IMG/VR virus record: IMGVR_UViG_3300014913_000026
Location: 1 to 42,156 of that record
Length of the DNA stretch: 42,156 nt
Source of the DNA: a virus
Direction: 5' to 3' (one strand)
The notes below the pieces were generated by a model. It did no database searches. It saw only the letters and a list, made by a program, of their open reading frames with translations, and was not told the origin of the DNA. The position numbers and the translations under genes are program-made. Below, in pieces: positions 1-42,156 of the stretch. Each line of letters starts with the position of its first letter. The stretch's first letter is position 1.

Positions 1-504
1 AATGAAAAATATTACGGAACAGATGATGGAGGATTAAAAGGATTTCACGCATTGCCCGAAGACACAAATAAAGTTCTTGTTTCAGCCGATGATACTACTC
101 CAAATTATCTTGAAGAAAAAATACTTGTTGAATCTGCAATAACAAAAACGATAGAAACCGATGGCGCGGATGAAAATATAAAACTAGACATTACAAATGA
201 TGGGATTGAAGATAAACACATCAACTCAAATGTCGCAGGGGACGGTATAGGGCAGGATACAAACGGAGCTCTTGAAGTTAATGTAGACAATCATACGCTA
301 GAAATTGCTACAAATCAAGTCAAGGTAAAAGCTAGCGGGATTGGTTCAAGTGAAGTTGACGAAGATGATTTTGACACTGTAACGGTCATTACAGGCGCGT
401 CCCTAAGCGGAGGCAATTTAGTTTTTTCAACAACAGTATTAAAAGTTTTACGAGATGATGGAGCAGGATCAAGTATAACAATTACAGGTACGGAGTGCCC
501 ATAA
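1..504 (+). CDS. tail fibre/tail-tip protein, C-terminal part (continues from 42156)
   Basis: The frame is open from base 1 and ends at a TAA at 502-504. It is the same frame that runs open off the right end, so this is the C-terminal 167 residues of the gene starting at 41512 if the molecule is circular. The first residues read like a common fibre motif (YYGTDDGGLKGFHALP). A PNYLEEKI segment repeats one found near the C-terminus of the other half. The rest is Asp/Gly/Thr-rich and beta-prone (GIEDKHIN, GDGIGQDTNGALEVNV), as in trimeric fibre shafts. It lies after the tape measure and next to other tail-tip genes, so it is probably a structural host-contact protein. An internal ATG at 52 is possible but has no good ribosome site. 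Confidence 0.75.
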   Translation, partial: NEKYYGTDDGGLKGFHALPEDTNKVLVSADDTTPNYLEEKILVESAITKTIETDGADENIKLDITNDGIEDKHINSNVAGDGIGQDTNGALEVNVDNHTLEIATNQVKVKASGIGSSEVDEDDFDTVTVITGASLSGGNLVFSTTVLKVLRDDGAGSSITITGTECP

Positions 505-505
505 T

Positions 506-1246
506 ATGCCAATTTATACCATTGATAATGAAATATTGATAAATGATGGGAAAATAGCAATGCATGAGGATTGTTGTTGTGGTGGTGGCTGTGAAGATTA
601 TACTGGTTTGATAACAATTACAGGAATAACCTCAACAAATAGAGACGGTACGGACACAGGCGGAGACTACTACAATTTTTATGGCAAAAAGTTTTACAAT
701 AATGATTCTTATCCGTTTTGTTCGACAAGTACAATGAGACATGACCAGTATGCATTTTCCGTTTCTCCTTGCCCGTCAGTTTTGGGAGGATCCCCACCGC
801 CTCAAGTAACAAGGTTTTATACCGATTACGATTATGCCAGCTATGAAGTAGCAAGATTTCCAATGATGAATATTAAAGCAGGAACGGGAGGCAGAAATAG
901 TATAGGTCAACATTGCATGTGGAGTTATGGCAGTTTAACTAATAGCACTATAATATACAATGCAACATGGGATCAACAAACTACTAGAGTTCGTTTTTTT
1001 ACAAGTCTTTCCATCGGTTATGCTCGTTTAACATCTAGGCGGGTTAGAGGATTAGGTGCACCTTTTCATGGTGTAACAAGTTATGGGTACACAATTCCTA
1101 CCTTTGGATTAGCTAGTACTTCTATAAATAAACATAATTTATCATTAATTAGCGGTGAATTATGGCAAAAAAGTATAACTGTAGATGGAATTTATGGAAA
1201 AGTTGAATTAAATACAGGTATTCAAATAGCATGGGATATAACATAA
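506..1246 (+). CDS. putative tail/receptor-binding protein with Cys cluster
   Basis: This 246-residue protein starts 1 nt after the preceding tail gene. An unusual cysteine cluster, HEDCCCGGGCE, lies at residues 20-30. The rest is rich in Tyr, Thr, Ser and Gly with no predicted coiled coil, suggesting a beta-sheet structural domain. Position between a fibre gene and the sulfotransferase implies a virion tip or host-recognition role. The Cys cluster could bind metal or form disulfides. I do not recognise a named family. Confidence 0.6.
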   Translation: MPIYTIDNEILINDGKIAMHEDCCCGGGCEDYTGLITITGITSTNRDGTDTGGDYYNFYGKKFYNNDSYPFCSTSTMRHDQYAFSVSPCPSVLGGSPPPQVTRFYTDYDYASYEVARFPMMNIKAGTGGRNSIGQHCMWSYGSLTNSTIIYNATWDQQTTRVRFFTSLSIGYARLTSRRVRGLGAPFHGVTSYGYTIPTFGLASTSINKHNLSLISGELWQKSITVDGIYGKVELNTGIQIAWDIT

Positions 1247-1255
1247 AGGATAAAA

Positions 1256-2329
1256 ATGATAATAATAAGCGGTTGCCCTCGAAGCGGTACAAGTTTGATG
1301 ATGGATATAATGCGTGAAACATTCGGAGAAAAACGCATATTAGGTAAGAAATTCCCACAAGACCAAAAAATAAAATATTACAATAATCAAGCTCCAAAAG
1401 AGACAAATGGACAGTACGATATAAGAAAATACAAGCAAGAACTAAATGAAAGAAAAAGCGGTATTAACCCCGTGAAAGATTTTGAAGAAACAAAAGATAT
1501 GAATCCAAATGGGTTTTGGGAGATGCTTTATACCGTCCAAGGCTGTTTTTATCGATTCAAAGATGCAAACAACTTAGAAATATTATTGAAAGAAAAAGAA
1601 AAAAGTATATGTAAAATCGTATCGCAAGGATTAATAAATTCAGATCCTCAATATATCGATAAAATAATATATATGATTAGACATCCCCGAGCCGTTGCAA
1701 AGTCACAAGAAAGGCTAAAAAGGAATTTACCGAGCTTTCAGACAGAAAAAGGAATAAAGCATCTTGAAGATGAAGTAACAATACACAGCCCCGAAATGTA
1801 CATTAATGTGACAATTCAGGCTGCGAAGTGGCTATTAAAGTATAAAAACAAAGAGGTTTTATTTCTTCATTTTGAGGATTTATTAGAACAGCCTGAAAAA
1901 GAATTAAAGAGAGTTCAGAGCTTTTTAAATGAGGGAGATTTCACGGAGTCGATAAAAAGAATTAACCCGAAGCTACGGAGAAGTTACCCGCAAGATGTAA
2001 AAAATAATTACTGGGAGATTTCAGAAAAGATATATAAAGCCTTTTCGGAAAAAGATTATAGAAAGGTTATATCTTTTCAAACAGAATATAGCAAATTAAA
2101 ACAAGATACAGAAAAAAGCTGGTTTTGTGAAAGAGTTAATAGAATGACTTACACCACAGGTTGCAAAAGTTGCTATAGTGACGCAAGAGTAAAAAAAAGA
2201 CTTGCTAAATCAGCAACGGAAAGAGGCATAAACTGGGAAAATCTACCTTGTTTGTATGAATGCGAAAACAAAGGAATTAGCATCAAGGACAGTATTAAAA
2301 ACAATAACTGGATGGTTGAAGATGAATAA
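1256..2329 (+). CDS. PAPS-dependent sulfotransferase family protein
   Basis: A 357-residue protein preceded by AAAGGA. The N-terminus has the sulfotransferase 5'-phosphosulfate loop (GCPRSGTSLMMDI, residues 6-18). A second motif, IYMIRHPRAVAKSQ (about 138-151), matches the 3'-phosphate-binding segment, where Arg and Ser contact PAPS. Family members move the sulfuryl group of 3'-phosphoadenylyl sulfate to a hydroxyl of a glycan, protein or small molecule. The C-terminal 70 residues add an unusual Cys-rich tail (WFC, GCKSC, PCLYEC) that may bind metal. The stop codon overlaps the start of an APS-kinase gene that could make the donor. Lying among tail genes, it may sulfate a virion protein or a host surface glycan; the acceptor is unknown. 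Confidence 0.8.
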   Translation: MIIISGCPRSGTSLMMDIMRETFGEKRILGKKFPQDQKIKYYNNQAPKETNGQYDIRKYKQELNERKSGINPVKDFEETKDMNPNGFWEMLYTVQGCFYRFKDANNLEILLKEKEKSICKIVSQGLINSDPQYIDKIIYMIRHPRAVAKSQERLKRNLPSFQTEKGIKHLEDEVTIHSPEMYINVTIQAAKWLLKYKNKEVLFLHFEDLLEQPEKELKRVQSFLNEGDFTESIKRINPKLRRSYPQDVKNNYWEISEKIYKAFSEKDYRKVISFQTEYSKLKQDTEKSWFCERVNRMTYTTGCKSCYSDARVKKRLAKSATERGINWENLPCLYECENKGISIKDSIKNNNWMVEDE

Positions 2330-2816
2330 CACAATATGGCTGATTGGCAGACCTTGCGCAGGGAAAACGACGATTTCAGAGGCAATTAAACACAATGCGA
2401 TTAGACTTGACGGGGACGTTCTCAGAAAAGGCTTGAATTCAGATTTAGGCTTTTCTATTGAAGACAGGAGCGAGAATTTAAGACGAGTTGCAGAAATATC
2501 GAAAATATTCAACGATAACGGACATGATGTAATTTGCTCTTTTGTCACTCCTTGCGAATTACAGAGAAGATTACTAGCATCAATTAACCCTTGTATTAAT
2601 TTTGTTAATGTATATTGTAGCCTTGAAATAGCCATAAAAAGAGACGTTAAAGGAATGTATAAAAAAGCTTTAAGAGGTGAAATAAAAGACTTTACGGGCA
2701 TAGATTCGGTTTACGAAGAACCTCTCCAAAGCATTTTGAAACTTGACACAGAAACGCAAACTATACAAGTATGTGCAGCAATATTAACAAATTATATAAA
2801 ATGGTGCAAAAAATGA
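2322..2816 (+). CDS. cysC: adenylylsulfate (APS) kinase-like protein
   Basis: A 164-residue P-loop kinase. The Walker A is GRPCAGKTT (residues 8-16). The APS-kinase signature is very clear: LDGDVLRKGLNSDLGFS followed by IEDRSENLRRVAEI. A second family hallmark, KGMYKKALRGEIKDFTGID then SVYEEP, lies near the C-terminus. APS kinase phosphorylates the 3'-OH of adenylyl sulfate to make PAPS, the sulfotransferase donor. It is shorter than typical CysC (about 200 residues), missing the usual N-terminal lead-in. I chose the ATG at 2322, which puts the P-loop at the usual distance and overlaps the sulfotransferase stop by 8 nt; an upstream in-frame ATG at 2256 is less likely. No ATP sulfurylase is present, so APS would come from the host. 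Confidence 0.87.
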   Translation: MNNTIWLIGRPCAGKTTISEAIKHNAIRLDGDVLRKGLNSDLGFSIEDRSENLRRVAEISKIFNDNGHDVICSFVTPCELQRRLLASINPCINFVNVYCSLEIAIKRDVKGMYKKALRGEIKDFTGIDSVYEEPLQSILKLDTETQTIQVCAAILTNYIKWCKK

Positions 2817-3448
2817 AACATATATACATAACACATTCAGAATTATTTATACAAACATTCCCACAACGAAAAGAAAGATATGAAAATATTTTAAAAAGAT
2901 ACGATAATGGGAATTGTAAAAACTGCGAAGTAAATAGAATAAACAGCAGACTAGAGCGACTTGTAAAAGGAGTTATGAAAAATGAAAAATGGGATAATAC
3001 AGAGCTAAAAAAGGTTTTAAGTGACGAGGAATTCAAAAGTTTAAATGAACCATTAAGTCAAAATTCAAGACGGCAAAAAGTCGAACCTTGCGAGGAATGC
3101 GTAATAAAACATTTATCAGCTGCTTTTATTCTATTAAATGAAGTTCAAAACGGAAATCCTGACAATAGGAAAGAATTATATGCGGAATTAAGGCAGGCAA
3201 AAAGGGAAGGCTGGCAAGTGGAAAAAGTCTTCATTAAAATACCACTTGACAAATTGCGAGAAATGATAGTGCAAGGTGCAAATATAGACGTGTCAGAAAT
3301 TCGCTTTATCGGCTATTTAGCCATTGCCGAAGAAATAACAGCAGATGCAGAATATAAATCAATCTTGCGGAAAATAAGAAGAGAAACGCAAGATAAAATA
3401 GAACGAAATAAAACAAAACAAAAACCCAAACAGGAGCAAACAAAATGA
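2813..3448 (+). CDS. conserved phage protein with two CxxC motifs
   Basis: A 211-residue protein whose ATG overlaps the APS-kinase stop (ATGA), so the two are translationally coupled. It contains NCKNCEVNRI near the N-terminus and EPCEECVIKHLSAAFILLNE in the middle, suggesting zinc or metal binding followed by an amphipathic helix. The C-terminal 40 residues are highly charged (Lys/Arg/Gln). I do not recognise an enzyme fold. Its coupling to the sulfotransferase/APS-kinase pair makes it a candidate accessory factor of that cassette, but it could equally be a tail assembly protein. Confidence 0.6.
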   Translation: MKHIYITHSELFIQTFPQRKERYENILKRYDNGNCKNCEVNRINSRLERLVKGVMKNEKWDNTELKKVLSDEEFKSLNEPLSQNSRRQKVEPCEECVIKHLSAAFILLNEVQNGNPDNRKELYAELRQAKREGWQVEKVFIKIPLDKLREMIVQGANIDVSEIRFIGYLAIAEEITADAEYKSILRKIRRETQDKIERNKTKQKPKQEQTK

Positions 3449-3780
3449 ACGATTTACACCTACACCCCAAAAAAAGTACTATATTTCTAATTATTACTTT
3501 AATCCTCTTAACTGTATCACTATACGCCGTCAATATCAACGAGACGCAGAGCAAGCGAACGTTTATGCAGGCGCAAGACAGTTCAGATGTCGCAAAAGGA
3601 ATGGGAGCCTATCAAATTGACACAGCAACCGCAAACACTACGTTTATTCGCTACAAAGCAGGGGACGAAGAGGTTTTTATTAAAAAAATATATATCGATG
3701 GAGATTTAACGACTATTACAAAAACATTTGATTTATGGGCAAATCGTGGGACTGCTACATATATTGGAATTAACGAATAA
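3445..3780 (+). CDS. small membrane-anchored or secreted protein
   Basis: A 111-residue protein with ATGA coupling to the upstream gene. The N-terminus is short and basic, followed by a hydrophobic helix (STIFLIITLILLTVSLYAV, residues 11-29), then a soluble beta-prone domain. This could be an uncleaved signal anchor or a signal peptide ending near LYA. It is the first of three consecutive genes with export-type N-termini in the tail region. Function unknown. Confidence 0.6.
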   Translation: MNDLHLHPKKSTIFLIITLILLTVSLYAVNINETQSKRTFMQAQDSSDVAKGMGAYQIDTATANTTFIRYKAGDEEVFIKKIYIDGDLTTITKTFDLWANRGTATYIGINE

Positions 3781-3790
3781 GGGATACACT

Positions 3791-6700
3791 ATGAAAAAAC
3801 TACTATTATTACTTTTTATTGTTACAATTGGATTGAGTGCAGGGACTTACTACGATGCTATTCTGGACGCTGAACGGAGCGATTATGGAACCGATGGCGG
3901 TGGTGGTGGTGGTGGAACTCCTGCAGGTTTATCAGGAGACTTTCAGTACAACGATGCTGGTTCGTTTGGTGGAGTTTCAGGTATGAGCTTTTCAGGTGAT
4001 ACCGTGACAATTGATTCGGACTTAATTTTAGATGTCAAAGGCATCTTAAAAATCACGGATGATAAAGCACAATCTACAATCCTAGCAATCGAAAACACTT
4101 CAGGCAATGAAAATGTAGGAATTAGCTTAACAAACGCCGATCCCGACTCACCCGCCCATATAGAAATAAACAGCTCAGGACACTTAAAAATAGGTTTAGA
4201 CGGAATCGATGCTATTTGGATTCGTCCAGGGTTTTCGCGAAATTGTTTAAAATTTGATACGTCTTTTTACATAAATTCACAATTAGCTAATTATGACACT
4301 ATTATAAACGGTGACAACGGCGCACTATTTACAATTGATGCAGATCTTGACTCTGTTATTATCAACGATGATGCTATTGATTGCGCTGTTTTATTTCGGA
4401 AAGATGCAAGCCTTGACGGCACAGAATGGCTTGATTATTCAGGATTAACAGACAATTTAACGCTGGATGTGACTTCTCTCTCCGTTATTGATGAAGTAAC
4501 CGCAAACGGGTTATTTTATTTAGATACTAATGAAATTGTAACGAACGACAGCGGAGAGGGTATAGATTATACTTTCGGAACTTCAAGAGGGAGTTTTTTA
4601 TATTATAATGATGGTTTAAATGAGGTCCAACTAGACGGCACTTGTATTTTTAATTATACTTATGCTGATACGGATACGGTAATCAGAGGGCAGGGCAGCA
4701 ATGAGCTATACAGAGCAAAAGCGACTACAGGAGCGCAAACTCACACGTTTAACACAGGGGGAGTCGATAGGTTAGTTATTGAAACAGATGGAACATTAAG
4801 CGTTGATACTCCCAATTATGAAACTCTTATTATTGATGATGATGACATCCCAAACAAGAAATATGTTGATGATAACTTATCCTTCTCCACGACTTCCAAT
4901 GTAACATCAAATGGTCCAGGAGATTTAACTACCGATGACTTCGTTTTTGGATCGTATCAACTTGACGATGTCGATGGTGTAACAGACTATGATTCTAGAA
5001 TGTTTTTCGATAAGGCTAAAGGCGCATTTAGAGCTGGGACTGTCACTGGGACGCAATGGAACGATGTATATGTTGGAATAGGCTCTTTTGCAGTAGGTTC
5101 AAATAGTTCTGCATCGGGAGATTACTCTTTTTCTATGACAGGTGGACTTGCTGACGGAGATTATTCTTTTGCCGCAGCTCACGGATATACAGTAGGAGAT
5201 TATTCTTTTGCTACAACTAATAGTGACGCAATAGGGGTTTATTCTTTTGCAGTGTCAAACAGCGAAGCACTGGGTGATTATTCTTTTGCAATGTCAAACG
5301 GATACGCAGATGGCGCTTATTCTGGCGCAATGGGAAATTCTAATGCACACGACTACGCAGAATTTACAGCAGGACAATATAACGTGATTTCAGGAGGGAG
5401 TCAGACACAATGGGAAGATGACGAAGCTCTATTCACCCTTGGAAACGGAACAGGAACAGGAGACCGTAACAACGCATTCCAAGTCCTGAAAAACGGGAAC
5501 ACGATGATTGATGGAACATTAAAACTTGGTAATGCTTCATTAGTTGCAGTTGACACAATAGAAGAAACATTAACCGATGATGACACGCATATCCCAACTT
5601 CGAGTGCGGTGGTTGACGCAATAACCGCAGTATCAACGAATGTAATATATATCAACAGTGACACAGACCTTCCCACTCCTCAAAATATAGATGCTAGAGG
5701 TAATTGTTATCATTTAGCAGCAAATAAAAGGTATGTGTTCACGTATGCACCTACACTAACAATTCCATTTGCAATTCCAAATGATTCCGTAAGAGTAACG
5801 CAAATTCATAGCAACACGATTACATGGAATGGTACAGGTGCTCTCTTTCGGGGGTTGAATACGTTTACAGATCTCTCATTAGAGGTATTTGATATATTAA
5901 TCGCTGGGGATGGAACAAATACATGTTTTGATATCCCTGCAGGACTATCATTTGCTATTATATTATCTGATTTCGATAACATAGAAATAGGCATACTTGA
6001 TAGCATTCAATTTGTTGTGATTGAAAGAACATCATTTAAAAATATTACAGGAACATTATCCTTAAATGATTGTAATGTAAGTTATTGTAGAGCCTTATCT
6101 TTCCAAGCATCATCTTCATTTTCAGATGTGTATATTTCGCTATCAGGAACAACAATAAGCAATGTTTTTGTAAATTGCCAAATGGTTCCCTTAGCGGGGG
6201 ATACTTGCTTTAATTTAGACTCGGGATTAACTGGGTTTGTAAATATTCTAGGTTCTAATTTCGTTCTTGCTTACGGAGGCACAGTTTTTGACACAGGGGG
6301 ATTAGACCAAACTGATTTGAATGTCAATTGTTTTGCAAGCACTGGTGTTTCTGCGAGTCATATTGCAGGGGAAGCGTTCCAGACACCATCCTCAAGTCCC
6401 ATAATAATAGACATTCCTGCACAAAATGCGTATGTTATTTCTAACGTAGATGGTTGGATTCCAGACGGTGAAGAACGAATAACAATAGATGCGACAGGAT
6501 TTATAACACTAACCGCTTTAGAAGAACAATTAATAAACATTAACAGAGATATGAGGATAGATCAGGCAACATCATCATATGAAATAGGAATTAGAGAGTG
6601 GATTATACACGTTGAAGACAGCACGGATGTAACATTCACAAATGGCACGAATGTTATAAATGAAACCGCAACTGCTCTTGTTGATGACGATACTATTGTT

Positions 6701-7036
6701 TTTCGTAATACGGCAGGAACATTACCTGCTGAATTAAGAAAAGATATAATTTATTATGTTGTCAATAAAGCAACAAATACATTCCAAATTTCGTATACAG
6801 AGGGGGGATCTGCAATAACATTCACGGATGACGGAACGCCAACAAATCAATATCATATTGTCAATAAACACGGTTCTGAACCTTCTGAAACTATATCAGC
6901 AGGGACACCAAAAACATTGTCTTTGAAATCTCAATTCAAAATGCACACGGGGGATATCAGCGTTGTGACCGTAATAAACAAAGAGAATAGTAATAATATC
7001 AGAGTTTATTCTGGTGGATACGTAAGAATTCCATAA
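3791..7036 (+). CDS. large tail fibre-like protein with signal peptide and YadA-type head repeats
   Basis: A 1081-residue protein. I chose the ATG at 3791, which begins an ideal signal peptide (MKKLLLLLFIVTIGLSAG); the in-frame ATG at 3728 lies inside the previous gene. Next come a Gly tract (residues 36-42, encoded by a GGT/GGC repeat) and a fibre linker, GDFQYNDAGSFGGVSG. Residues about 440-520 hold degenerate repeats around GDYSFA (five to six copies of about 14 residues), similar in spacing to YadA/trimeric-autotransporter head repeats. The middle of the protein is probably beta-helical. A signal peptide is unusual for a virion fibre: the protein may instead be exported to the host surface, or this may be a fibre gene that gained an export signal. 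Confidence 0.8.
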   Translation: MKKLLLLLFIVTIGLSAGTYYDAILDAERSDYGTDGGGGGGGTPAGLSGDFQYNDAGSFGGVSGMSFSGDTVTIDSDLILDVKGILKITDDKAQSTILAIENTSGNENVGISLTNADPDSPAHIEINSSGHLKIGLDGIDAIWIRPGFSRNCLKFDTSFYINSQLANYDTIINGDNGALFTIDADLDSVIINDDAIDCAVLFRKDASLDGTEWLDYSGLTDNLTLDVTSLSVIDEVTANGLFYLDTNEIVTNDSGEGIDYTFGTSRGSFLYYNDGLNEVQLDGTCIFNYTYADTDTVIRGQGSNELYRAKATTGAQTHTFNTGGVDRLVIETDGTLSVDTPNYETLIIDDDDIPNKKYVDDNLSFSTTSNVTSNGPGDLTTDDFVFGSYQLDDVDGVTDYDSRMFFDKAKGAFRAGTVTGTQWNDVYVGIGSFAVGSNSSASGDYSFSMTGGLADGDYSFAAAHGYTVGDYSFATTNSDAIGVYSFAVSNSEALGDYSFAMSNGYADGAYSGAMGNSNAHDYAEFTAGQYNVISGGSQTQWEDDEALFTLGNGTGTGDRNNAFQVLKNGNTMIDGTLKLGNASLVAVDTIEETLTDDDTHIPTSSAVVDAITAVSTNVIYINSDTDLPTPQNIDARGNCYHLAANKRYVFTYAPTLTIPFAIPNDSVRVTQIHSNTITWNGTGALFRGLNTFTDLSLEVFDILIAGDGTNTCFDIPAGLSFAIILSDFDNIEIGILDSIQFVVIERTSFKNITGTLSLNDCNVSYCRALSFQASSSFSDVYISLSGTTISNVFVNCQMVPLAGDTCFNLDSGLTGFVNILGSNFVLAYGGTVFDTGGLDQTDLNVNCFASTGVSASHIAGEAFQTPSSSPIIIDIPAQNAYVISNVDGWIPDGEERITIDATGFITLTALEEQLININRDMRIDQATSSYEIGIREWIIHVEDSTDVTFTNGTNVINETATALVDDDTIVFRNTAGTLPAELRKDIIYYVVNKATNTFQISYTEGGSAITFTDDGTPTNQYHIVNKHGSEPSETISAGTPKTLSLKSQFKMHTGDISVVTVINKENSNNIRVYSGGYVRIP

Positions 7037-7093
7037 TTTTAATCCTTTCCCACAATGGCAAAGGAAAACAACAAACAACAAAAGGAGTACAAC

Positions 7094-7510
7094 ATGAAGA
7101 AAGTTCTCACACTATTAATCTTAACCGCATTTCTCACACTGCCAGCAATCGCAGAAACAACCGCAGTCTCGTACGTCGAGAAAGAAATTGAGACTCGATA
7201 CGGGGTAGATGCACCAGTCTGGTTTATTAGCTCAATCAGGATCAATACGCATCCTTCAAGCCCATCTGCAAGTATTCGCTTAGCTGGCTATGCAAACACA
7301 GAGGCATATCAGGCAGGAAATAGGGCAATAGGTTCTATCAATGTCAATGTCGAAAATATCAAAGATTTAGCCATTGAAATTCCTGAAGGTGGTACGAAAA
7401 GCCTCTATGAACTTGTAGCCGCTAAATCATTTCAATTAATCCTTGCTGATTCCAAGTTTACAGGAGGAACTGCAAAGGTTTACGAGTACACGATCCAAGA
7501 AAGGAATTAA
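7094..7510 (+). CDS. small secreted/periplasmic protein
   Basis: A 138-residue protein starting at the ATG after AAAGGAG (7081-7087); the in-frame ATG at 7055 lacks a ribosome site. The N-terminus is a textbook signal peptide (MKKVLTLLILTAFLTLPAIA then ETTA), with cleavage expected after AIA. The mature part (about 118 residues) has no cysteines and looks beta-rich. It directly follows the exported fibre-like protein and could be its partner, possibly a host-surface or superinfection-exclusion factor. Family not recognised. Confidence 0.65.
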   Translation: MKKVLTLLILTAFLTLPAIAETTAVSYVEKEIETRYGVDAPVWFISSIRINTHPSSPSASIRLAGYANTEAYQAGNRAIGSINVNVENIKDLAIEIPEGGTKSLYELVAAKSFQLILADSKFTGGTAKVYEYTIQERN

Positions 7511-14369: not shown

Positions 14370-14441
14370 TCAGATTACCAGTTTATCTTTTTCCGTTTCA
14401 AATTCTCCATCGACTCCTGAAATTCTTTGTTTAATTTGCAT
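14370..14441 (-). CDS. possible 23-residue peptide
   Basis: A short ORF (MQIKQRISGVDGEFETEKDKL then VI) with a good ribosome site, GGAAGG, 8 nt before the ATG, inside the last codons of the LpoB-like gene. It fills most of an otherwise empty 95-nt gap. Size alone makes this uncertain. Confidence 0.35.
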   Translation of the reverse strand: MQIKQRISGVDGEFETEKDKLVI

Positions 14442-15153
14442 TTTGTGACCTTCCAATTAAATATTTATTACGGTTTTTTTGTATTTCTTTTTCCTCCGCC
14501 CATTCATCAATTCCAGTTCGAATATTTTTTAGGTTCATTGTAATTTTATAGTACACGTCTTTTTTAGAACCTGATTCTTGTACTATTTCGATGAATGAGC
14601 CAGTCAAAAGATATTCAGCTCCGACATGTTCCCCAAATGACTGAACGGTCGAAAGATCAACAAGTCCGCTGTCTCTTTGATATTTCAGTTCGGCGATTGC
14701 CTCCTGATCAGTGAGACGATTTATAAAACGAAATTTACCAGACTGGATAAGCTTGGTTTTTATACTGTCTGTCAGACTGGCAAGATCTATTTGCTGCATT
14801 GTTTTATTTTTTATTTTGCTTACTGAAATAACAGGCCTTCTTTTACTGGTCAATTCAATTAAAGGTGGAAATTTCAGCATAGAATCCACCATTCCGGTAG
14901 TTATTTTTTTCAGATCAGAAGAATTAAAATCGGTTGATAAAAGTTGATTTGGTCTTTCATCACCATGCTTTATACTCCTTTTTTGGCATTTTTTACATTC
15001 GGACTCTATGTGAACCGCCCAGCTTTTGAAAACATACATAGTATGTCCTGTCAATAGATCCCTGCGTTCATACAATCGAATTGTTTTCGGTATTTCTATT
15101 TCCGTACATGACGAAAATAAAAAAGAAAATAGTACAACAATCAGTAATTTCAT
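14431..15153 (-). CDS. LpoB-like lipoprotein (PBP-activator family) fused to a phage lipoprotein N-terminus
   Basis: A 240-residue protein. Residues 1-16 are a lipoprotein signal with lipobox FSSC (Cys16). Residues 17-60 are nearly the same as those of the separate 61-residue lipoprotein at 15336-15521. From about residue 75 the sequence matches LpoB: RPVISVSKIKNKTMQQIDL, SLTDSIKTKLIQSGKFRFI, GLVDLSTVQSFGEHVGAEYL, LTGSF and DVYYKITMNL, ending EWAEEKEIQK. LpoB in enterobacteria is an outer-membrane lipoprotein that reaches through the periplasm to stimulate PBP1b. A phage copy could alter cell-wall synthesis during infection. The junction lies at a sequence element repeated nearby, so it looks like a gene fusion. 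Confidence 0.82.
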   Translation of the reverse strand: MKLLIVVLFSFLFSSCTEIEIPKTIRLYERRDLLTGHTMYVFKSWAVHIESECKKCQKRSIKHGDERPNQLLSTDFNSSDLKKITTGMVDSMLKFPPLIELTSKRRPVISVSKIKNKTMQQIDLASLTDSIKTKLIQSGKFRFINRLTDQEAIAELKYQRDSGLVDLSTVQSFGEHVGAEYLLTGSFIEIVQESGSKKDVYYKITMNLKNIRTGIDEWAEEKEIQKNRNKYLIGRSQNAN

Positions 15154-17633: not shown

Positions 17634-18367
17634 AATTCCCATCCTTCTGTTCGTTGTTTTTGCCCCGCAATAAAAATAATATTCCGCCACAGTTTATTTT
17701 TCGGGTTAATCCATCCTTCAAAATTTTTTCTAAATTGCAAATCAGGAGTAGATGCTACGTAATCTTTTATTTTTGCTGAAATTTCATTTTTATCTTTTTC
17801 GGTAAGCATTTTCCAATAGTTCAATGCCTTTGTTTTTGTTCCTTTTCTCTCGTACATTTTCCATGCATTTTCAAATTCCAAATCAACGGCAACATGTTTT
17901 TTATTTTCTTTATTCTCCTTATTATAGTTATTACTTGTGGTTATCTGTTGGTTATCTGTTGGTTTTCTGTTGGTTTTCTGTTGGTTATCTGTTGGTTGGC
18001 AAGATTGATAAGTACCGTAATTACAAATGGTTAGGCTGGTTGTTTTTCGCAAGCCTTTTATAGCAATCATAGAATCTTTTTCTAACAAATTAAAAAATGT
18101 CCTGACTTTTTGCCGAGTCCACTTATTCCCGAATATTAGCATCCAAGAGTTCACAGAACGCAAACTTTCACCTTTTTTGCATTCGAGAAGTTCACCGTCT
18201 ATTACAACTTTTGAATCCTCAAAATTAACCCCCAATAACATTGTTATCCACGCTTTCAAATATAAAGGATTTTTAAAAATCCAGTGATCTTGAATCTGTC
18301 TATGAATGCTTATCCAGCCAGATATTTTAGACGATTGTTTTGGTAATGGTTTTTCTGTAGTTATCAT
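17630..18367 (-). CDS. replisome organiser / origin-binding replication protein
   Basis: A 245-residue protein of the phage replication-initiator type. The N-terminus (GWISIHRQIQDHWIFKNPLY) is a common start in Gram-positive and other phage initiators, followed by a winged-helix-like region (WTRQKVRTFFNLLEKDSMI). A low-complexity linker (QPTDNQQKTNRKPTDNQQ) is encoded by 11-bp DNA iterons. The C-terminal domain (FENAWKMYERKGTKTKALNYW) resembles the helix-loader interaction region of DnaD-like proteins. It would melt the origin lying within its own gene and recruit the DnaC-like loader next door. Confidence 0.8.
   Translation of the reverse strand: MITTEKPLPKQSSKISGWISIHRQIQDHWIFKNPLYLKAWITMLLGVNFEDSKVVIDGELLECKKGESLRSVNSWMLIFGNKWTRQKVRTFFNLLEKDSMIAIKGLRKTTSLTICNYGTYQSCQPTDNQQKTNRKPTDNQQITTSNNYNKENKENKKHVAVDLEFENAWKMYERKGTKTKALNYWKMLTEKDKNEISAKIKDYVASTPDLQFRKNFEGWINPKNKLWRNIIFIAGQKQRTEGWEL
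17897..17993. other. candidate replication origin: five 11-bp iterons beside an AT-rich tract
   Basis: Five head-to-tail 11-bp units lie at 17939, 17950, 17961, 17972 and 17983: three GGTTATCTGTT and two GGTTTTCTGTT, then a partial sixth (GGTTGG). The adjacent 17897-17937 is almost all A/T and could be the unwinding element. The 11-bp period is not a multiple of 3, so the repeat is selected at the DNA level. Iterons inside the initiator gene mirror the lambda O/ori arrangement. Confidence 0.75.
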
Positions 18368-19320
18368 TTTTCAGACTCCATAAAATCAAATTCAAGTTGT
18401 TTATTTTCACAGGGAACATTTATATAATTTAAAACTTTCCGTATACCTAATTTATCCATGCAATATTTCCACTGTTTCGGATGAGTCTTTTGCATTAATT
18501 GAAATCTGTTTGGCTGTTTTTCGAGATGACAGCCGAACATGCAGAACATACAGCCCGTTCTTTTGTATCCCATATCATAGATTTTTGAATATGGAATGTT
18601 GTAATGTTTGATGTAATCCCAAATATCTTTTTCATTCCAAAACATCAACGGTCTAGATTGTGCAGATTTTAAATAAAAAGCATTGCAGGCATTTTTTAGA
18701 TAAGATTGAGTTCTTAATCTGCTTTCTCCTGCCATTGTGCCGACAAAAGGAACTCTTTTTGTTTTCATAAAAAATTTATGAGCTGGTCGTTTTTTCATAA
18801 CATCGCAACATTGCTCGGAAATTTTAATTTTATTTTGATCCATTAAATACTGCCATTTTTTAGAAACTGCTCCAACTCGATACCCATTCCTCCCATTAAT
18901 CATTCCCCTTCTTTTGTTTTCTGTGTATTTCGTTGTTCCGTTTTGAACTTCTCTGATGTATTTTGCCTGTTCCTTTGAAACAACAGGATAGCCATACTTC
19001 TCCAGAACCTGTTTAAAATTCATCTTAGGTTTAATTATCGTGACATTCTCACAACTCTTAATAAAGTCCACAATTTCGGGGAATTCAAGCCCTGTGTTGA
19101 TGAAAACAGAGGGAATAACACCACGTAAAATAGGATCATCTTTTATAGTTTCTTCAACGAGATGTTTTAAAACTGTTGAGTCTTTACCTCCTGAAAAAGA
19201 AATATAACAGCCATTAACTCCGAATTCTTTTACCCAAGCCTTAATTCTTTTTTTTGACATTGCGATTTTGCAAGGTAGTGATAACAGTTGTCTTGTTTTC
19301 AACATTTCAGTAGTAATCAT
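18364..19320 (-). CDS. PAPS-reductase-like PP-loop (adenine nucleotide alpha-hydrolase) protein
   Basis: A 318-residue protein with the PP-loop SFSGGKDSTVLKHLV (residues 41-55), which binds ATP or adenylyl sulfate. A Cys cluster, TGCMFCMFGCH, near residue 250 could hold an iron-sulfur cluster, unlike assimilatory CysH, which uses a C-terminal ECG motif that I do not see. Such proteins are common in phage early regions and some relatives act in DNA or tRNA sulfur chemistry (DndC/TtcA-type). It overlaps the initiator gene by 4 nt. A link to the sulfotransferase cassette is possible but not needed. Confidence 0.82.
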   Translation of the reverse strand: MITTEMLKTRQLLSLPCKIAMSKKRIKAWVKEFGVNGCYISFSGGKDSTVLKHLVEETIKDDPILRGVIPSVFINTGLEFPEIVDFIKSCENVTIIKPKMNFKQVLEKYGYPVVSKEQAKYIREVQNGTTKYTENKRRGMINGRNGYRVGAVSKKWQYLMDQNKIKISEQCCDVMKKRPAHKFFMKTKRVPFVGTMAGESRLRTQSYLKNACNAFYLKSAQSRPLMFWNEKDIWDYIKHYNIPYSKIYDMGYKRTGCMFCMFGCHLEKQPNRFQLMQKTHPKQWKYCMDKLGIRKVLNYINVPCENKQLEFDFMESEK

Positions 19321-37972: not shown

Positions 37973-38661
37973 TGCCTAATATAAATATAACAGATTTCAC
38001 AAAAGGGAGAACCCGCTTAAAAAAAACCTTAAACGATCTCCCTACAATCACGCTTGACGAATTACAAGAGCTTTTCAGGATTGATAACCTAATTGCGACA
38101 AATGGCGGTTCTTGCCCTGCTGACGTAGGAATAGACCGCCCTGTTTATGTTGATTGTTTTGAAATTTACCGCCCATCGATTGCGGCAATGACTTTTATAT
38201 CTGAATATGCTTGCGAGTGGTTTATTGATGATATTGAATGCTTGATTTTTACCGCTCTGGCTCTCCAAGAAAGCAGAAACCAGAAAGTTTTGTTTCAAAA
38301 GCTAGGGAATAAAAAACGAGCAATTAAAGCAGTGAGAGATCAGAAACAATATATCTGCTGTACTATTGAAGAGTTGAAACATGCTATTGATGCAGCCTAT
38401 GAGGGATTCCCACTTTCGGGAATTGTGAATAATGAATCACCTACTTATTTATTAGCCCTTGCCTCGAATTATTCGGAATCGATTGGAGGCACGCCAGAAT
38501 ATTGGTTTTGGGATGAATCGGCGCAACGGGTAATGTGGACAGAAAGACAAAGAAGAGACACGGAAAGGCAAGAGAATAAATTGCCTCCTGTCGGTAAAGG
38601 CTGTGCAATCGCTTTATATTTGAAATACGCAAAAGAATTAAAAGAGAAATATGTCAACTAA
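37972..38661 (+). CDS. putative tail assembly chaperone-like protein
   Basis: A 229-residue protein between the tube and tape-measure genes, where tail assembly chaperones normally are. The sequence is mainly alpha-helical (TITLDELQELFRIDNLIATN; CEWFIDDIECLIFTALALQE). I see no obvious slippery heptamer near its end, so a frameshifted longer form is not supported. It overlaps the tape measure by 11 nt. Confidence 0.55.
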   Translation: MPNINITDFTKGRTRLKKTLNDLPTITLDELQELFRIDNLIATNGGSCPADVGIDRPVYVDCFEIYRPSIAAMTFISEYACEWFIDDIECLIFTALALQESRNQKVLFQKLGNKKRAIKAVRDQKQYICCTIEELKHAIDAAYEGFPLSGIVNNESPTYLLALASNYSESIGGTPEYWFWDESAQRVMWTERQRRDTERQENKLPPVGKGCAIALYLKYAKELKEKYVN

Positions 38662-40840
38662 AAAAACAATTGAATTAATCCTGACCGCTAAAAATTTGAT
38701 GGGAAAAGGGTTGAATAAAGGGACTACAGCAATGCAGAAATTTGCTGAAAAGTCCAAAAATGCTTTATTAAAACTCAAAGGTATGCTTTTCTCACTTCCT
38801 GCTCTTGTCGCAGGTGTATTCACAGGAATCGCCTCAAGAATGATAATTAAGCCAGCGATGAACATGGAAAGTTTTAAAGTTCAATTTAAAACTTTGCTTG
38901 GATCATTGGGAAAGGCAGAAAAACGGATTAAGGAATTAACAGACTTTGCAGCGACTACACCATTCCAAATGCCTGGAGTTGTAAAGGCTTCAAAAATACT
39001 AGAGACATTAACAGAGGGCGCAATCTCAACAGGGAAAGGGTTAAGAATGGTTGGAGATGTAGCGGCTGGTGTAGGTGTTCCTATTGATGAATTAGCCGTC
39101 TGGTTTGGTCGTTTATATGACGGTTTGAAAAACAATAGACCTGTAGGGGAGGCAATGGCAAGGCTTCAAGAATTAGGGGCTATTTCAGGAAAAGCACGGG
39201 GAAAAATAGAGGAATTAACGGCAAGCGGTGCAAGTATGGCAGATAAGTGGAAAGCCGTCGAAGATGCAACCTCACGGTACAACGGATTAATGAAAGAGCA
39301 ATCAGAAATACTAACTGGCCTGGTATCGACTTTCAAAGATAATTTTTCTCTAGCTCTTACAGAAATCGGAACTGAAATATTACCTGTTTTGAAAGATGCG
39401 ACAAAGGAATTAACAAAAGTAATTGTTGATCTGAAAAAATCTGGACAGCTAAAAGAATTCGGAAAAGAAGCCGCTCAAGCCTTACGCTCGATTTACAACA
39501 TTTTGAAATCAGTAACAGGCTTTGTAATCAAAAACAGGGAGATTATAGCAAATTTAGGATTATCGCTTGCAGGACTGAAAATATTAAAAATGGCAAAAGT
39601 GGGATTAGTAGCCCTAAAAGTTGCTTTTTCTGCTCTAATAGCTCCCACAGTAGGAGCGACGGCAGCAACAACAGCATTTTTAGGAGTGCTAACTGGCGGA
39701 TTATGGATTGTCGCAATTGCATTAATCGGAAAAGTTGCAAAAGCCTTTATAGGACTACAAAAAGATATTGCAAAAGCCGAGCAAGCTATAAAAAAATTCA
39801 ACATTGCAGGCAGTGGAACAAAAAAAGATTCAATGTGGACGAATTTAAAAGAGGCTTATGGATTTGGTCAAAAAGAAGGAGTAGTATTAAGTTCAAAAGC
39901 AATAACAAAAGAAGAACTTGAAAAAGCAAATGCAGACCGAAGAAGTCGCACTGAAGAAACCGAAAAGAAACAAACAGAAGAAGTAAAGCAAATATCAAAA
40001 CAAGCATTCCAGAAACAAAAAAAACAAGATTTAAAAAACTTCAATGAGCAGATTAAAGCAATGAAAGATATATATATTCCTGAAGCTGAAAAACAACTTG
40101 CCGAAGCTGAAAAATACAGTTTGCAGACATTGAAAGATCAAACAATAGCAGAAAAAAGAGGAGCCTTACGAGGAAGACAAACAGCCGATTATGCAAATAA
40201 TCAACTTGCAAATCAAAGAGAACAAAGTCAGACAGAAAGGAATGAGCAACAAAAAGAAATGGCTAGACGAATGGGAGACGATGCAAACGCCGTTAATGTT
40301 GATGAAAATATATTAATGACTGATTTTTTGAAAAACGCAAATAAGCGAAACGAAGGGATTAAAACAGGTTACAGAAATGCCCAAGTTAGAAAATGGGAAA
40401 GGGAAAACAAGGCAAGCAAAAATAAAGCCGAGCAAGACGAAAAAAAGAGGCTTGAAAGAATAGAGCGAATAGAAGAAAAACGGAAAAAAGGCAGGCATAT
40501 AACAGGCAAAGAATTAGAATTACTTGCAGACGATGAAAAGAGAAAAGCAATAGATGCAGCAAATGCCGCTTTGAAAGCAGAAAAAGACAGATTGAAAGCT
40601 TTACAAGATGAAAAAAATAAACTTCAAAAGTTGACAATTGACGATATTAAAGAAAAAATAAAATGGCGACCGCAAATGTTAAATAAAATTGGAGCTGTAA
40701 CAACAGCGATCGGACAGATAAAACTTAAAGACGCAAAGCAAGACCAACTAGACTATACAAAAAAACTACAGAAAAACAATGAATTACTCTATGAATTGAC
40801 GCAAAAAGATATCAACTCGTGGGATTTATCAAAGAGGTAA
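38651..40840 (+). CDS. tail tape measure protein
   Basis: A 729-residue protein. The N-terminal part (LILTAKNLMGKGLNKGTTAM, then FKVQFKTLLGSLGKAEKRIK and DFAATTPFQMPGVVKASKIL) is the classical tape-measure start; residues 310-370 hold hydrophobic segments (VGLVALKVAFSALIAPTVGA), and the rest is charged coiled coil. Length predicts a tail of roughly 100 nm by the usual 0.15 nm per residue rule. No sheath gene is present, so the tail is probably non-contractile. Confidence 0.92.
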   Translation: MSTKKTIELILTAKNLMGKGLNKGTTAMQKFAEKSKNALLKLKGMLFSLPALVAGVFTGIASRMIIKPAMNMESFKVQFKTLLGSLGKAEKRIKELTDFAATTPFQMPGVVKASKILETLTEGAISTGKGLRMVGDVAAGVGVPIDELAVWFGRLYDGLKNNRPVGEAMARLQELGAISGKARGKIEELTASGASMADKWKAVEDATSRYNGLMKEQSEILTGLVSTFKDNFSLALTEIGTEILPVLKDATKELTKVIVDLKKSGQLKEFGKEAAQALRSIYNILKSVTGFVIKNREIIANLGLSLAGLKILKMAKVGLVALKVAFSALIAPTVGATAATTAFLGVLTGGLWIVAIALIGKVAKAFIGLQKDIAKAEQAIKKFNIAGSGTKKDSMWTNLKEAYGFGQKEGVVLSSKAITKEELEKANADRRSRTEETEKKQTEEVKQISKQAFQKQKKQDLKNFNEQIKAMKDIYIPEAEKQLAEAEKYSLQTLKDQTIAEKRGALRGRQTADYANNQLANQREQSQTERNEQQKEMARRMGDDANAVNVDENILMTDFLKNANKRNEGIKTGYRNAQVRKWERENKASKNKAEQDEKKRLERIERIEEKRKKGRHITGKELELLADDEKRKAIDAANAALKAEKDRLKALQDEKNKLQKLTIDDIKEKIKWRPQMLNKIGAVTTAIGQIKLKDAKQDQLDYTKKLQKNNELLYELTQKDINSWDLSKR

Positions 40841-40844
40841 TATA

Positions 40845-41507
40845 ATGGCACTATCACCAATTTTAAACGGTTGCAGAATTGACTATGATGGAGGTAAGGG
40901 GAGTATTCAATGTTTTTATGAAACATCTGGAGACTTGCCATCCGAGGGTTCAAGCGCAAATACTTTATTTCCAACTGAATTTGTACTAATCCCTACGAGC
41001 GTTTGGATTACGGGGAATTATACATCAATCAACCCTAATTTAATAGTTCCTGAAGTGACAATAGAATTAATTAAAATCGCAGACGAAAGCACGGAAAACT
41101 ATTCAACATATATTCTTGCTCCGAAATCTTACATGCGTGAAGCCGACGTTGACGGGGAAACATACACAAAAAAAGTCGCTTTTAAAACGTATACTGGAAT
41201 TCTTGTAGGATGGACAGAAGCCGAAGACTGGACAAATGATCCCGAAATTGACCCAGCCGACACAGGAGACGAACCGCTATTTACTTTGAAACAATGGGAT
41301 TTGGAAGTTATATCAAGCACGGACTACGCACCAATTTGGATTAATCAAGTTGTTACTTCGTTTCCTTCAGGTATAACCGCTCCTTCAGGAAGCAAACTGT
41401 GTAAATTCGCAGTATCTGAAGAGGCAGTATCACAATCAGGAAATATAAAATATAGAACAAATGCGACTTTCTGGATCGCACCGACTGGCTATACATGGGA
41501 GACGTAA
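40845..41507 (+). CDS. tail protein downstream of tape measure
   Basis: A 220-residue beta-rich protein directly after the tape measure. It has no lysins or enzymatic motifs; segments such as KKVAFKTYTGILVGWTEAED and a C-terminal TNATFWIAPTGYTWET suggest a tail-tip or distal tail protein domain. The next gene begins 5 nt after its stop. Confidence 0.6.
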   Translation: MALSPILNGCRIDYDGGKGSIQCFYETSGDLPSEGSSANTLFPTEFVLIPTSVWITGNYTSINPNLIVPEVTIELIKIADESTENYSTYILAPKSYMREADVDGETYTKKVAFKTYTGILVGWTEAEDWTNDPEIDPADTGDEPLFTLKQWDLEVISSTDYAPIWINQVVTSFPSGITAPSGSKLCKFAVSEEAVSQSGNIKYRTNATFWIAPTGYTWET

Positions 41508-41511
41508 ATAG

Positions 41512-42156
41512 ATGGTTCAACAGTTTCTAAATTGGCTTAGGAGTTCAAAGAGTGTAACAGAATTTACTCAAAAGGTCGCTACTTGGTTTTTTTCTTGGAT
41601 GTGGATAAATGAGGGTTCAAACATCACGATTGATAAAGAGCCGGGCGGAATCGTTATAAATGCGTACAATGTAGGTTTAGGAGATTCGAAAAACATTTTT
41701 CCTGTACAAATAACATCACATGGTAGCAATAATTCTTACAAATGTAACGTCTATGATAAAAAAGATGGCAATGTAATATTTGAAGGAAAAACCCTTACTA
41801 TATACAATATTGATGGTTCTTTAATAATTCCCGACGATACATGGCTTTTAGCATTTTTAAATCCAGACAATGAATATGAAACAGAATATGAAATTAATAT
41901 TGATGGTATGGATGAATTATCGATCCCAAACATTACAGATGCTGATAGGTATATGATATATGATGCATCGGAAAAAGTATACAAAAAAACAAAAAGCGAT
42001 CATCGTTTAAAAGTTTCTATTGATGATATTATCCCAAATTATCTTGAAGAAAAAATAACGGTAAACAGTTCAGGATGCGGTATGAAATTAGAGGTTTTAA
42101 ATCCTGCAGGTAATGAAAGAATAGAAATTTCTGCAAAGGTAAAGAATTCCATTGAA
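41512..42156 (+). CDS. tail fibre/tail-tip protein, N-terminal part (continues at base 1)
   Basis: Open from an ATG at 41512 to the last base: 215 complete codons, with the next codon at base 1. The N-terminus is helical (MVQQFLNWLRSSKSVTEFTQ), then a beta domain. Residues 150-200 hold IPNITDADRYMIYDASEK and DDIIPNYLEEKI, the latter echoed as TPNYLEEKI in the other half. Combined length would be 382 residues ending at 504. It is a structural tail protein probably involved in host contact. Confidence 0.8.
   Translation, partial: MVQQFLNWLRSSKSVTEFTQKVATWFFSWMWINEGSNITIDKEPGGIVINAYNVGLGDSKNIFPVQITSHGSNNSYKCNVYDKKDGNVIFEGKTLTIYNIDGSLIIPDDTWLLAFLNPDNEYETEYEINIDGMDELSIPNITDADRYMIYDASEKVYKKTKSDHRLKVSIDDIIPNYLEEKITVNSSGCGMKLEVLNPAGNERIEISAKVKNSIE

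Follow-up and report, generated by a model that had tools for sequence, protein, structure and literature searches.

What would a phage do with a sulfotransferase gene that overlaps an APS kinase gene, and what could the enzyme sulfate? We addressed this question in the window, i.e. the whole stretch of DNA analysed, which covers all 42,156 bases of a complete IMG/VR virus record, and in related loci from other viruses. The relevant features of the window are the following.

38651-40840: tape measure (PHROG match, 1e-22)
41512-42156 (+): fibre-like protein, 5' part, continuing at 1-504 by an in-frame join of the ends; internal repeat PNYLEEKI
1-504 (+): fibre-like protein, 3' part (in-frame end join), immediately 5' of 506-1246
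506-1246 (+): upstream tail-module protein, 246 aa, probable substrate; its stop lies 9 nt 5' of the sulfotransferase start
1256-2329 (+): PAPS-dependent sulfotransferase (hereafter ST), 357 aa; Pfam Sulfotransfer_1/3 over cut-off
1271-1294 (+): 5'-phosphosulfate-binding loop GCPRSGTS of the ST, residues 6-13; R9, S10, G11, T12 and S13 invariant in 22/22 relatives
1676-1708 (+): 3'-phosphate-binding motif IRHPRAVAKSQ of the ST, residues 141-151; R142 and S150 invariant in 22/22 relatives
2126-2311 (+): C-terminal four-Cys domain of the ST (C291, C303, C306, C332), residues 291-352; conserved in 22 relatives
2322-2816 (+): APS kinase, 164 aa, predicted to make PAPS; TIGR00455, APS_kinase, relative of PAPSS1
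2813-3448 (+): CxxC protein (third gene), 211 aa, with a 'C..C.KHL' motif; ATGA-coupled to the kinase stop

The placement of this cassette inside the tail module, proposed in an earlier note on this DNA, was borne out by the tape measure gene and by the ends of the record. ORFs 41512-42156 and 1-504 fuse in frame over these ends into a single 382-aa protein, and the ST, kinase and third gene therefore sit in a tail module whose order is tape measure, 40845-41507, joined fibre-like gene, 506-1246, ST, APS kinase, third gene. The record represents either a circularly closed or a permuted genome; the internal repeat spans the 42156/1 joint, and the record ends carry no terminal repeat. A Mu-type portal, an F protein, a head protease, a major head protein and the tape measure are all encoded at 30-41 kb.

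The two enzymes had been identified in the earlier note as a PAPS-type sulfotransferase and an APS kinase, and searches with the Sulfotransfer and APS_kinase profiles agreed, both scoring over cut-off. The ST begins with MIIISGCPRSGTSLMM, contains the motif IRHPRAVAKSQ, and matches Sulfotransfer_1 (PF00685, 2.5e-12) and Sulfotransfer_3 (PF13469, 4.2e-12) with 47.2 bits each, for cut-offs of 22 and 27. In addition to the PAPS-binding residues, E89, located between both PAPS motifs, and K120 do not vary among the 22 full-length aligned relatives; K120 is a candidate catalytic lysine, and E89 a candidate base. According to a published rule, sulfotransferases have an Arg in the 5'-phosphosulfate-binding motif, a Ser in the 3'-phosphate-binding motif and a His or Glu base in between (PMC6637879). 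The ST satisfies this rule with R9, S150 and E89, all invariant (22/22). Its C-terminal domain, which may hold a zinc site, keeps its four cysteines in 22/22 relatives, as well as W352, and W327 in 21 of the 22; it is present in duplicate in L071.

The kinase ORF was listed from the ATG at 2256, and the start that fits the overlap is the ATG at 2322 (ATGAATAA across the ST stop), so that both genes overlap by 8 nt. The product scores 155.1 bits on TIGR00455 apsK (curated cut-off 138.7) and 5e-42 on Pfam APS_kinase. Aligned to its closest solved relative, human PAPSS1 (7e-33), it shows the complete set of motifs: the P-loop (Walker A), LDGD..R.GLN.DLGFS and RDVKGMYKKA..GEIK.FTGID. Its assignment as a canonical APS kinase is a solid prediction. 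It resembles the CysC/TIGR00455 APS kinases (e.g. the kinase domain of human PAPSS1) in all tested motifs and in passing the curated cut-off, and differs from them in being shorter (164 aa), phage-borne and coupled to an ST. APS kinases convert APS and ATP into PAPS, and sulfotransferases use PAPS and an acceptor to form a sulfated acceptor. The claim that the kinase makes the donor of the ST is in line with its identity (155 bits on TIGR00455), and the predicted chemistry of both enzymes is well supported.

Another use of this PAPS has to be weighed. The same phage encodes on the minus strand, at 18364-19320, a PAPS-reductase-family protein (Pfam PAPS_reduct, 6e-27), through which PAPS from the kinase could enter sulfur assimilation as auxiliary metabolism, the ST being unrelated cargo; viral STs are usually classed as auxiliary metabolic genes, at least in the sections of PMC8290583 considered here. 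We hold this explanation to be very unlikely, as the reductase-family gene lies on the opposite strand in a distant module, whereas the kinase gene overlaps the ST gene by 8 nt and has repeatedly joined STs of this subfamily.

Which kind of acceptor would such an ST use? An AF2 model of the ST (pLDDT 80) was compared with the PDB using Foldseek, and the best 12 matches were human TPST1/2 (E 7.6e-6 to 2e-4). With TM-scores of 0.27-0.36, i.e. only about 0.3 globally, an rmsd of 12-16 Å and 13-17 percent identity, this resemblance is a hint and not a classification. The phage ST shares with animal TPST1/TPST2, whose substrates are proteins, a similar GxPRSGT(T/S)L loop, and gives its best Foldseek matches with them; unlike TPSTs, which reside in the Golgi membrane, it has no evident membrane anchor, and it has the four-Cys domain at its C-terminus. 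The proximity of the model to these peptide-acting enzymes would count in favour of a protein target. A bacterial system, likened here by description only, is RaxX-RaxST of Xanthomonas, in which the sulfotransferase gene also lies beside the gene of its own protein substrate, and the donor is PAPS (PMC6637879). RaxST, which was modelled on TPST2, resembles the window ST in its PAPS motifs, with an Arg in the first, a Ser in the other and a His/Glu base located in between (PMC6637879). RaxX, however, is a secreted peptide exported by RaxAB, and Rax PAPS comes from core genes (PMC6637879), whereas the neighbour of the phage ST is a tail protein, and some of the present phages have a dedicated APS kinase. 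In the loci inspected, no gene adjoining the ST was recognised as an exporter.

We then examined relatives of the ST in other viruses. Three IMG/VR scans with the ST sequence and one with the upstream gene gave a subfamily of 24 ST loci, each in a distinct viral record, window included, with about 33-52 percent identity within the aligned sets. The L207 ST is the sister of the window ST on the tree (support 94/92), and the L229 ST deviates at the first PAPS loop (PRSCSS). The window ST had zero matches among 50,697 phage records and 72,556 plasmids, and a scan of a genome collection gave at least 80 ST matches, at 19-27 percent and nearly all confined to the catalytic domain. Close relatives were thus absent from deposited phages, from plasmids and from the genome-scan matches listed, and the subfamily seems, as far as searched, to be virus-specific. 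Viral STs are known as auxiliary genes, as can be read in parts of PMC8290583, PMC10829341 and PMC12285232. Those of PMC8290583 and PMC12285232 are, like the window ST, encoded in viral contigs; the parts of these two papers considered here differ from the present case in giving no virion partner, APS kinase or subfamily. In the open-access literature, we found no description of a phage cassette of ST and APS kinase, nor of an ST linked with a virion protein.

The genes next to the ST suggest an answer. Upstream DNA is visible in 23 of the ST loci, and in 17 of these the virion gene that precedes the ST on the same strand encodes the same domain; a gene was taken as preceding if the gap measured at most 138 nt, or if the sole gene in between was an APS kinase or a small Cys-rich one. 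Gaps are small and strands match across loci. Membership was established by held-out search with a leave-one-locus-out HMM (E 0.0013 to 5e-36), or, for L196, by profile-profile comparison, and L203, outside the training set, was recovered by the domain profile at 2e-13. Three loci are tentative (the window, L192 and L207); there, the ST-flanking gene ranks first in its own locus by profile-profile comparison. The upstream gene of L229 has only the related leader type. Two of the 23 loci have no domain next to the ST, namely L190, where copies lie 5-9 kb upstream, and L197. In L187, where the contig ends 5' of the ST, the domain gene is immediately 3' of it. No copy of the domain turned up near 8 outgroup STs.

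This shared C-terminal module has a T(V/I)(S/T) strand, a W-x-G-x-(T/S)W-like stretch and a terminal GVTIxWxxGxGW, with CPxxY in many copies. AF2 predicts it as all-beta, and a fold search gave no structural match. The 10-row alignment of the domain was too divergent for the collection scan, and a tighter one was used. A strict C-terminal motif matched no protein outside the family in a partly redundant set of 2127; as it was composed after viewing the window, it does not count as a test.

The window protein 506-1246, with the N-terminal leader DGKIAMHEDCCCGGGC and the C-terminal motif GKVELNTGIQIAWDIT, would be the weakest member of the family. It matched the core-model HMM at E=0.0069 and was rank 1 among all window ORFs in profile-profile comparison; the full-model leave-one-out search misses it (E=15). 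Its leader matches that of L226 (phmmer 5.8e-4 among window ORFs) and those of L229-L233. Used alone as a query, it retrieved L229, where the next genes are a subfamily ST (1.4e-89) and a homologue of the third gene. We conclude from these similarities that 506-1246 probably belongs to the ST-adjacent beta-domain family.

Genes with the 'GKIAMHEDCCC' leader were also seen before Cys-rich proteins (L231:4980-5884 and L232:4965-5869), and before an ST-like protein without a Pfam match (L233:4226-5783). Because of these three loci, the leader is taken to characterise a broader group of tail genes that have partner enzymes.

Since ST relatives in about twenty other uncultured phages follow the same kind of tail gene, these phages probably sulfate their own tail proteins. 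A virion tail protein had been among the targets put forward in the earlier note, and the recurrence of one domain upstream of 17/23 related STs points in that direction. The tail-gene placement had also been considered unusual; it turns out to be the rule for the subfamily, and an unrelated ST, that of L062, shows it again, as part of a cassette of tail gene, ST and APS-kinase-like gene. On balance, we lean slightly towards a module that sulfates the phage's own tail, the ST acting on the neighbouring tail protein and the kinase boosting PAPS. Gene order designates the adjacent tail protein as the presumed substrate. Against this reading, phage genes can become neighbours through hot spots of mosaicism, and the domain is found without an ST in L226 (before a glycosyltransferase-like gene) and L227 (within a tail operon), as are STs without the domain (L190, L197).

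In L062 (3653-4914), the unrelated ST gene lies behind tail-fibre genes and has a 4-nt overlap with a short kinase gene, followed by holin/lysozyme-like genes. This short kinase matches only the first 91 APS_kinase positions. An HxGH nucleotidyltransferase, possibly a small sulfate adenylyltransferase, is fused to a half-kinase in L063 (2300-3049), and forms a protein of its own, encoded between STs and a true APS kinase, in L002 (6711-7130).

The upstream domain is rich in Tyr and Trp, with Tyr at 5.7 percent vs 3.8 percent in virion-like controls, and no Tyr is invariant across its members. As the domain is Tyr-rich yet lacks an invariant Tyr, Tyr, Ser/Thr and a glycan are all possible acceptors. 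The ST might sulfate a glycan put on the tail protein by phage or host glycosyltransferases, an alternative that we judge unlikely. Glycosyltransferase genes (Pfam GT9, GT2) lie directly or shortly 3' of the ST in L101, L188 and L198, a glycosyltransferase-like gene (by eye, no Pfam hit) takes the place of the ST after the L226 domain gene, and several structural proteins neighbouring STs have Ser-rich linkers. The window, L071 and most other loci, however, have no recognised glycosyltransferase adjoining the ST, and the nearest solved structures are the protein-acting TPSTs.

The earlier note had also proposed a host surface glycan as target, for a superinfection block, and the loci analysed gave no evidence of either. 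Small molecules and glycans are frequent substrates of bacterial STs, and two downstream gene products (3445-3780 and 3791-7036) have apparent signal peptides, both in keeping with modification of a host surface glycan or lipid that would block superinfection or change the host envelope. The position in the late tail module and the virion domain found next to most of these STs are not what would be expected of an early or lysogenic conversion gene, and we find this explanation quite improbable. In the region 3' of the cassette (3445-7510), three consecutive proteins start with apparent signal peptides or membrane anchors (at 3445, 3791 and about 7097), and one of them, of about 1080 aa, has weak YadA-head-like repeats. 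This is possibly an exported fibre or surface protein, and as such an alternative ST target.

DNA base hypermodification through sulfation is hardly to be expected. Sulfation-based nucleotide modification is said to be reported for phages in the part of PMC10829341 considered here, and two DNA methyltransferases are encoded in the window, but on the other strand, 7-10 kb off. Neither a base hydroxymethylase nor a DNA glycosyltransferase was recognised in the window, and the STs accompany tail genes, not replication genes.

Are the ST and the kinase an obligatory pair, as had been supposed? They are not: the kinase adjoins the ST in 4/24 loci and occurs elsewhere, away from the ST, in three more records (L072, L188, L194). 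It is an optional partner. Its adjacent position is 3' of the ST in the window and L200, and 5' in L071 and L198 (in L198, between domain gene and ST); the L200 kinase is diverged (PF01583, 7.6e-10). No APS kinase was found in the remaining 17 ST records, many of them fragments. Adjacency needs 4 changes on the ST tree, whose inner branches are weakly supported, and a single origin was obtained in 0/200 bootstrap trees. The scatter of the four kinase-bearing loci over this tree suggests repeated recruitment. As background, we used the rate in deposited phages (relatives of the window kinase in 5/50,697 records), because the window terminase control retrieved one short contig only; coming from a separate collection, this rate is a rough yardstick. 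In L002, L007 and L009, other STs are located no more than about 3.5 kb from true APS kinases. Half-length kinases (L011-L070) were rejected as APS kinases and not counted, since they match only APS_kinase positions 2-92.

If the phage does sulfate its own tail, the following steps can be envisaged. During late gene expression, the kinase would phosphorylate APS provided by the host ATP sulfurylase, and the ST would pass the sulfate of the resulting PAPS to the tail protein encoded immediately upstream, or to a glycan on that protein. This would take place in the cytoplasm, before or during tail assembly, and the four-Cys domain may recruit the target. Sulfation would give the tail domain a fixed negative charge, which would adjust attachment to the host surface or conceal the tail; it may thus have a role in host binding. 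To our knowledge, sulfated tail proteins have never been described for any virus particle. A broader proposal is held more tentatively, as somewhat short of probable: a TPST-like four-Cys ST would sulfate a dedicated tail domain in a widespread phage system, which repeatedly recruited PAPS synthesis, and these would be the first sulfated phage virion proteins.

Viral STs have so far been listed mostly as metabolic genes lacking a target. Should the tail protein prove to be the substrate, sulfation would stand beside glycosylation among the phage modifications of the receptor-binding apparatus, and the gene pair is a ready enzyme-substrate couple. It would then be, after RaxX/RaxST, the second ST of the bacterial world genetically paired with a protein substrate, and the repeated gain of APS kinase would point to donor supply as a possible bottleneck in virion modification.

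The third gene had been suggested to belong to the system as well. It matched no Pfam, PHROG or NCBIfam family over cut-off, and as sole query gave no matches in the pattern scan or among phages. Homologues nevertheless follow the ST directly in L207/L104 and L229 (for L207 and L229, 24-31 percent over about 100-125 residues, pairwise E 3e-9 to 2e-7), and among the window, L207 and L229, the kinase sits between ST and third gene only in the window. These homologues make it a partner of the ST at clade level, its conservation being limited to the clade closest to the window. From the proposed survey of relatives for all three genes together, it is the ST beside a tail domain that recurs; the kinase (4/24) and the third gene (three loci) do not follow it throughout. 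Lastly, the phage encodes on the minus strand, at 14431-15153, an LpoB-like lipoprotein (Pfam LpoB, 1.2e-44), which suggests a host with an outer membrane, or a part in the control of peptidoglycan synthesis.
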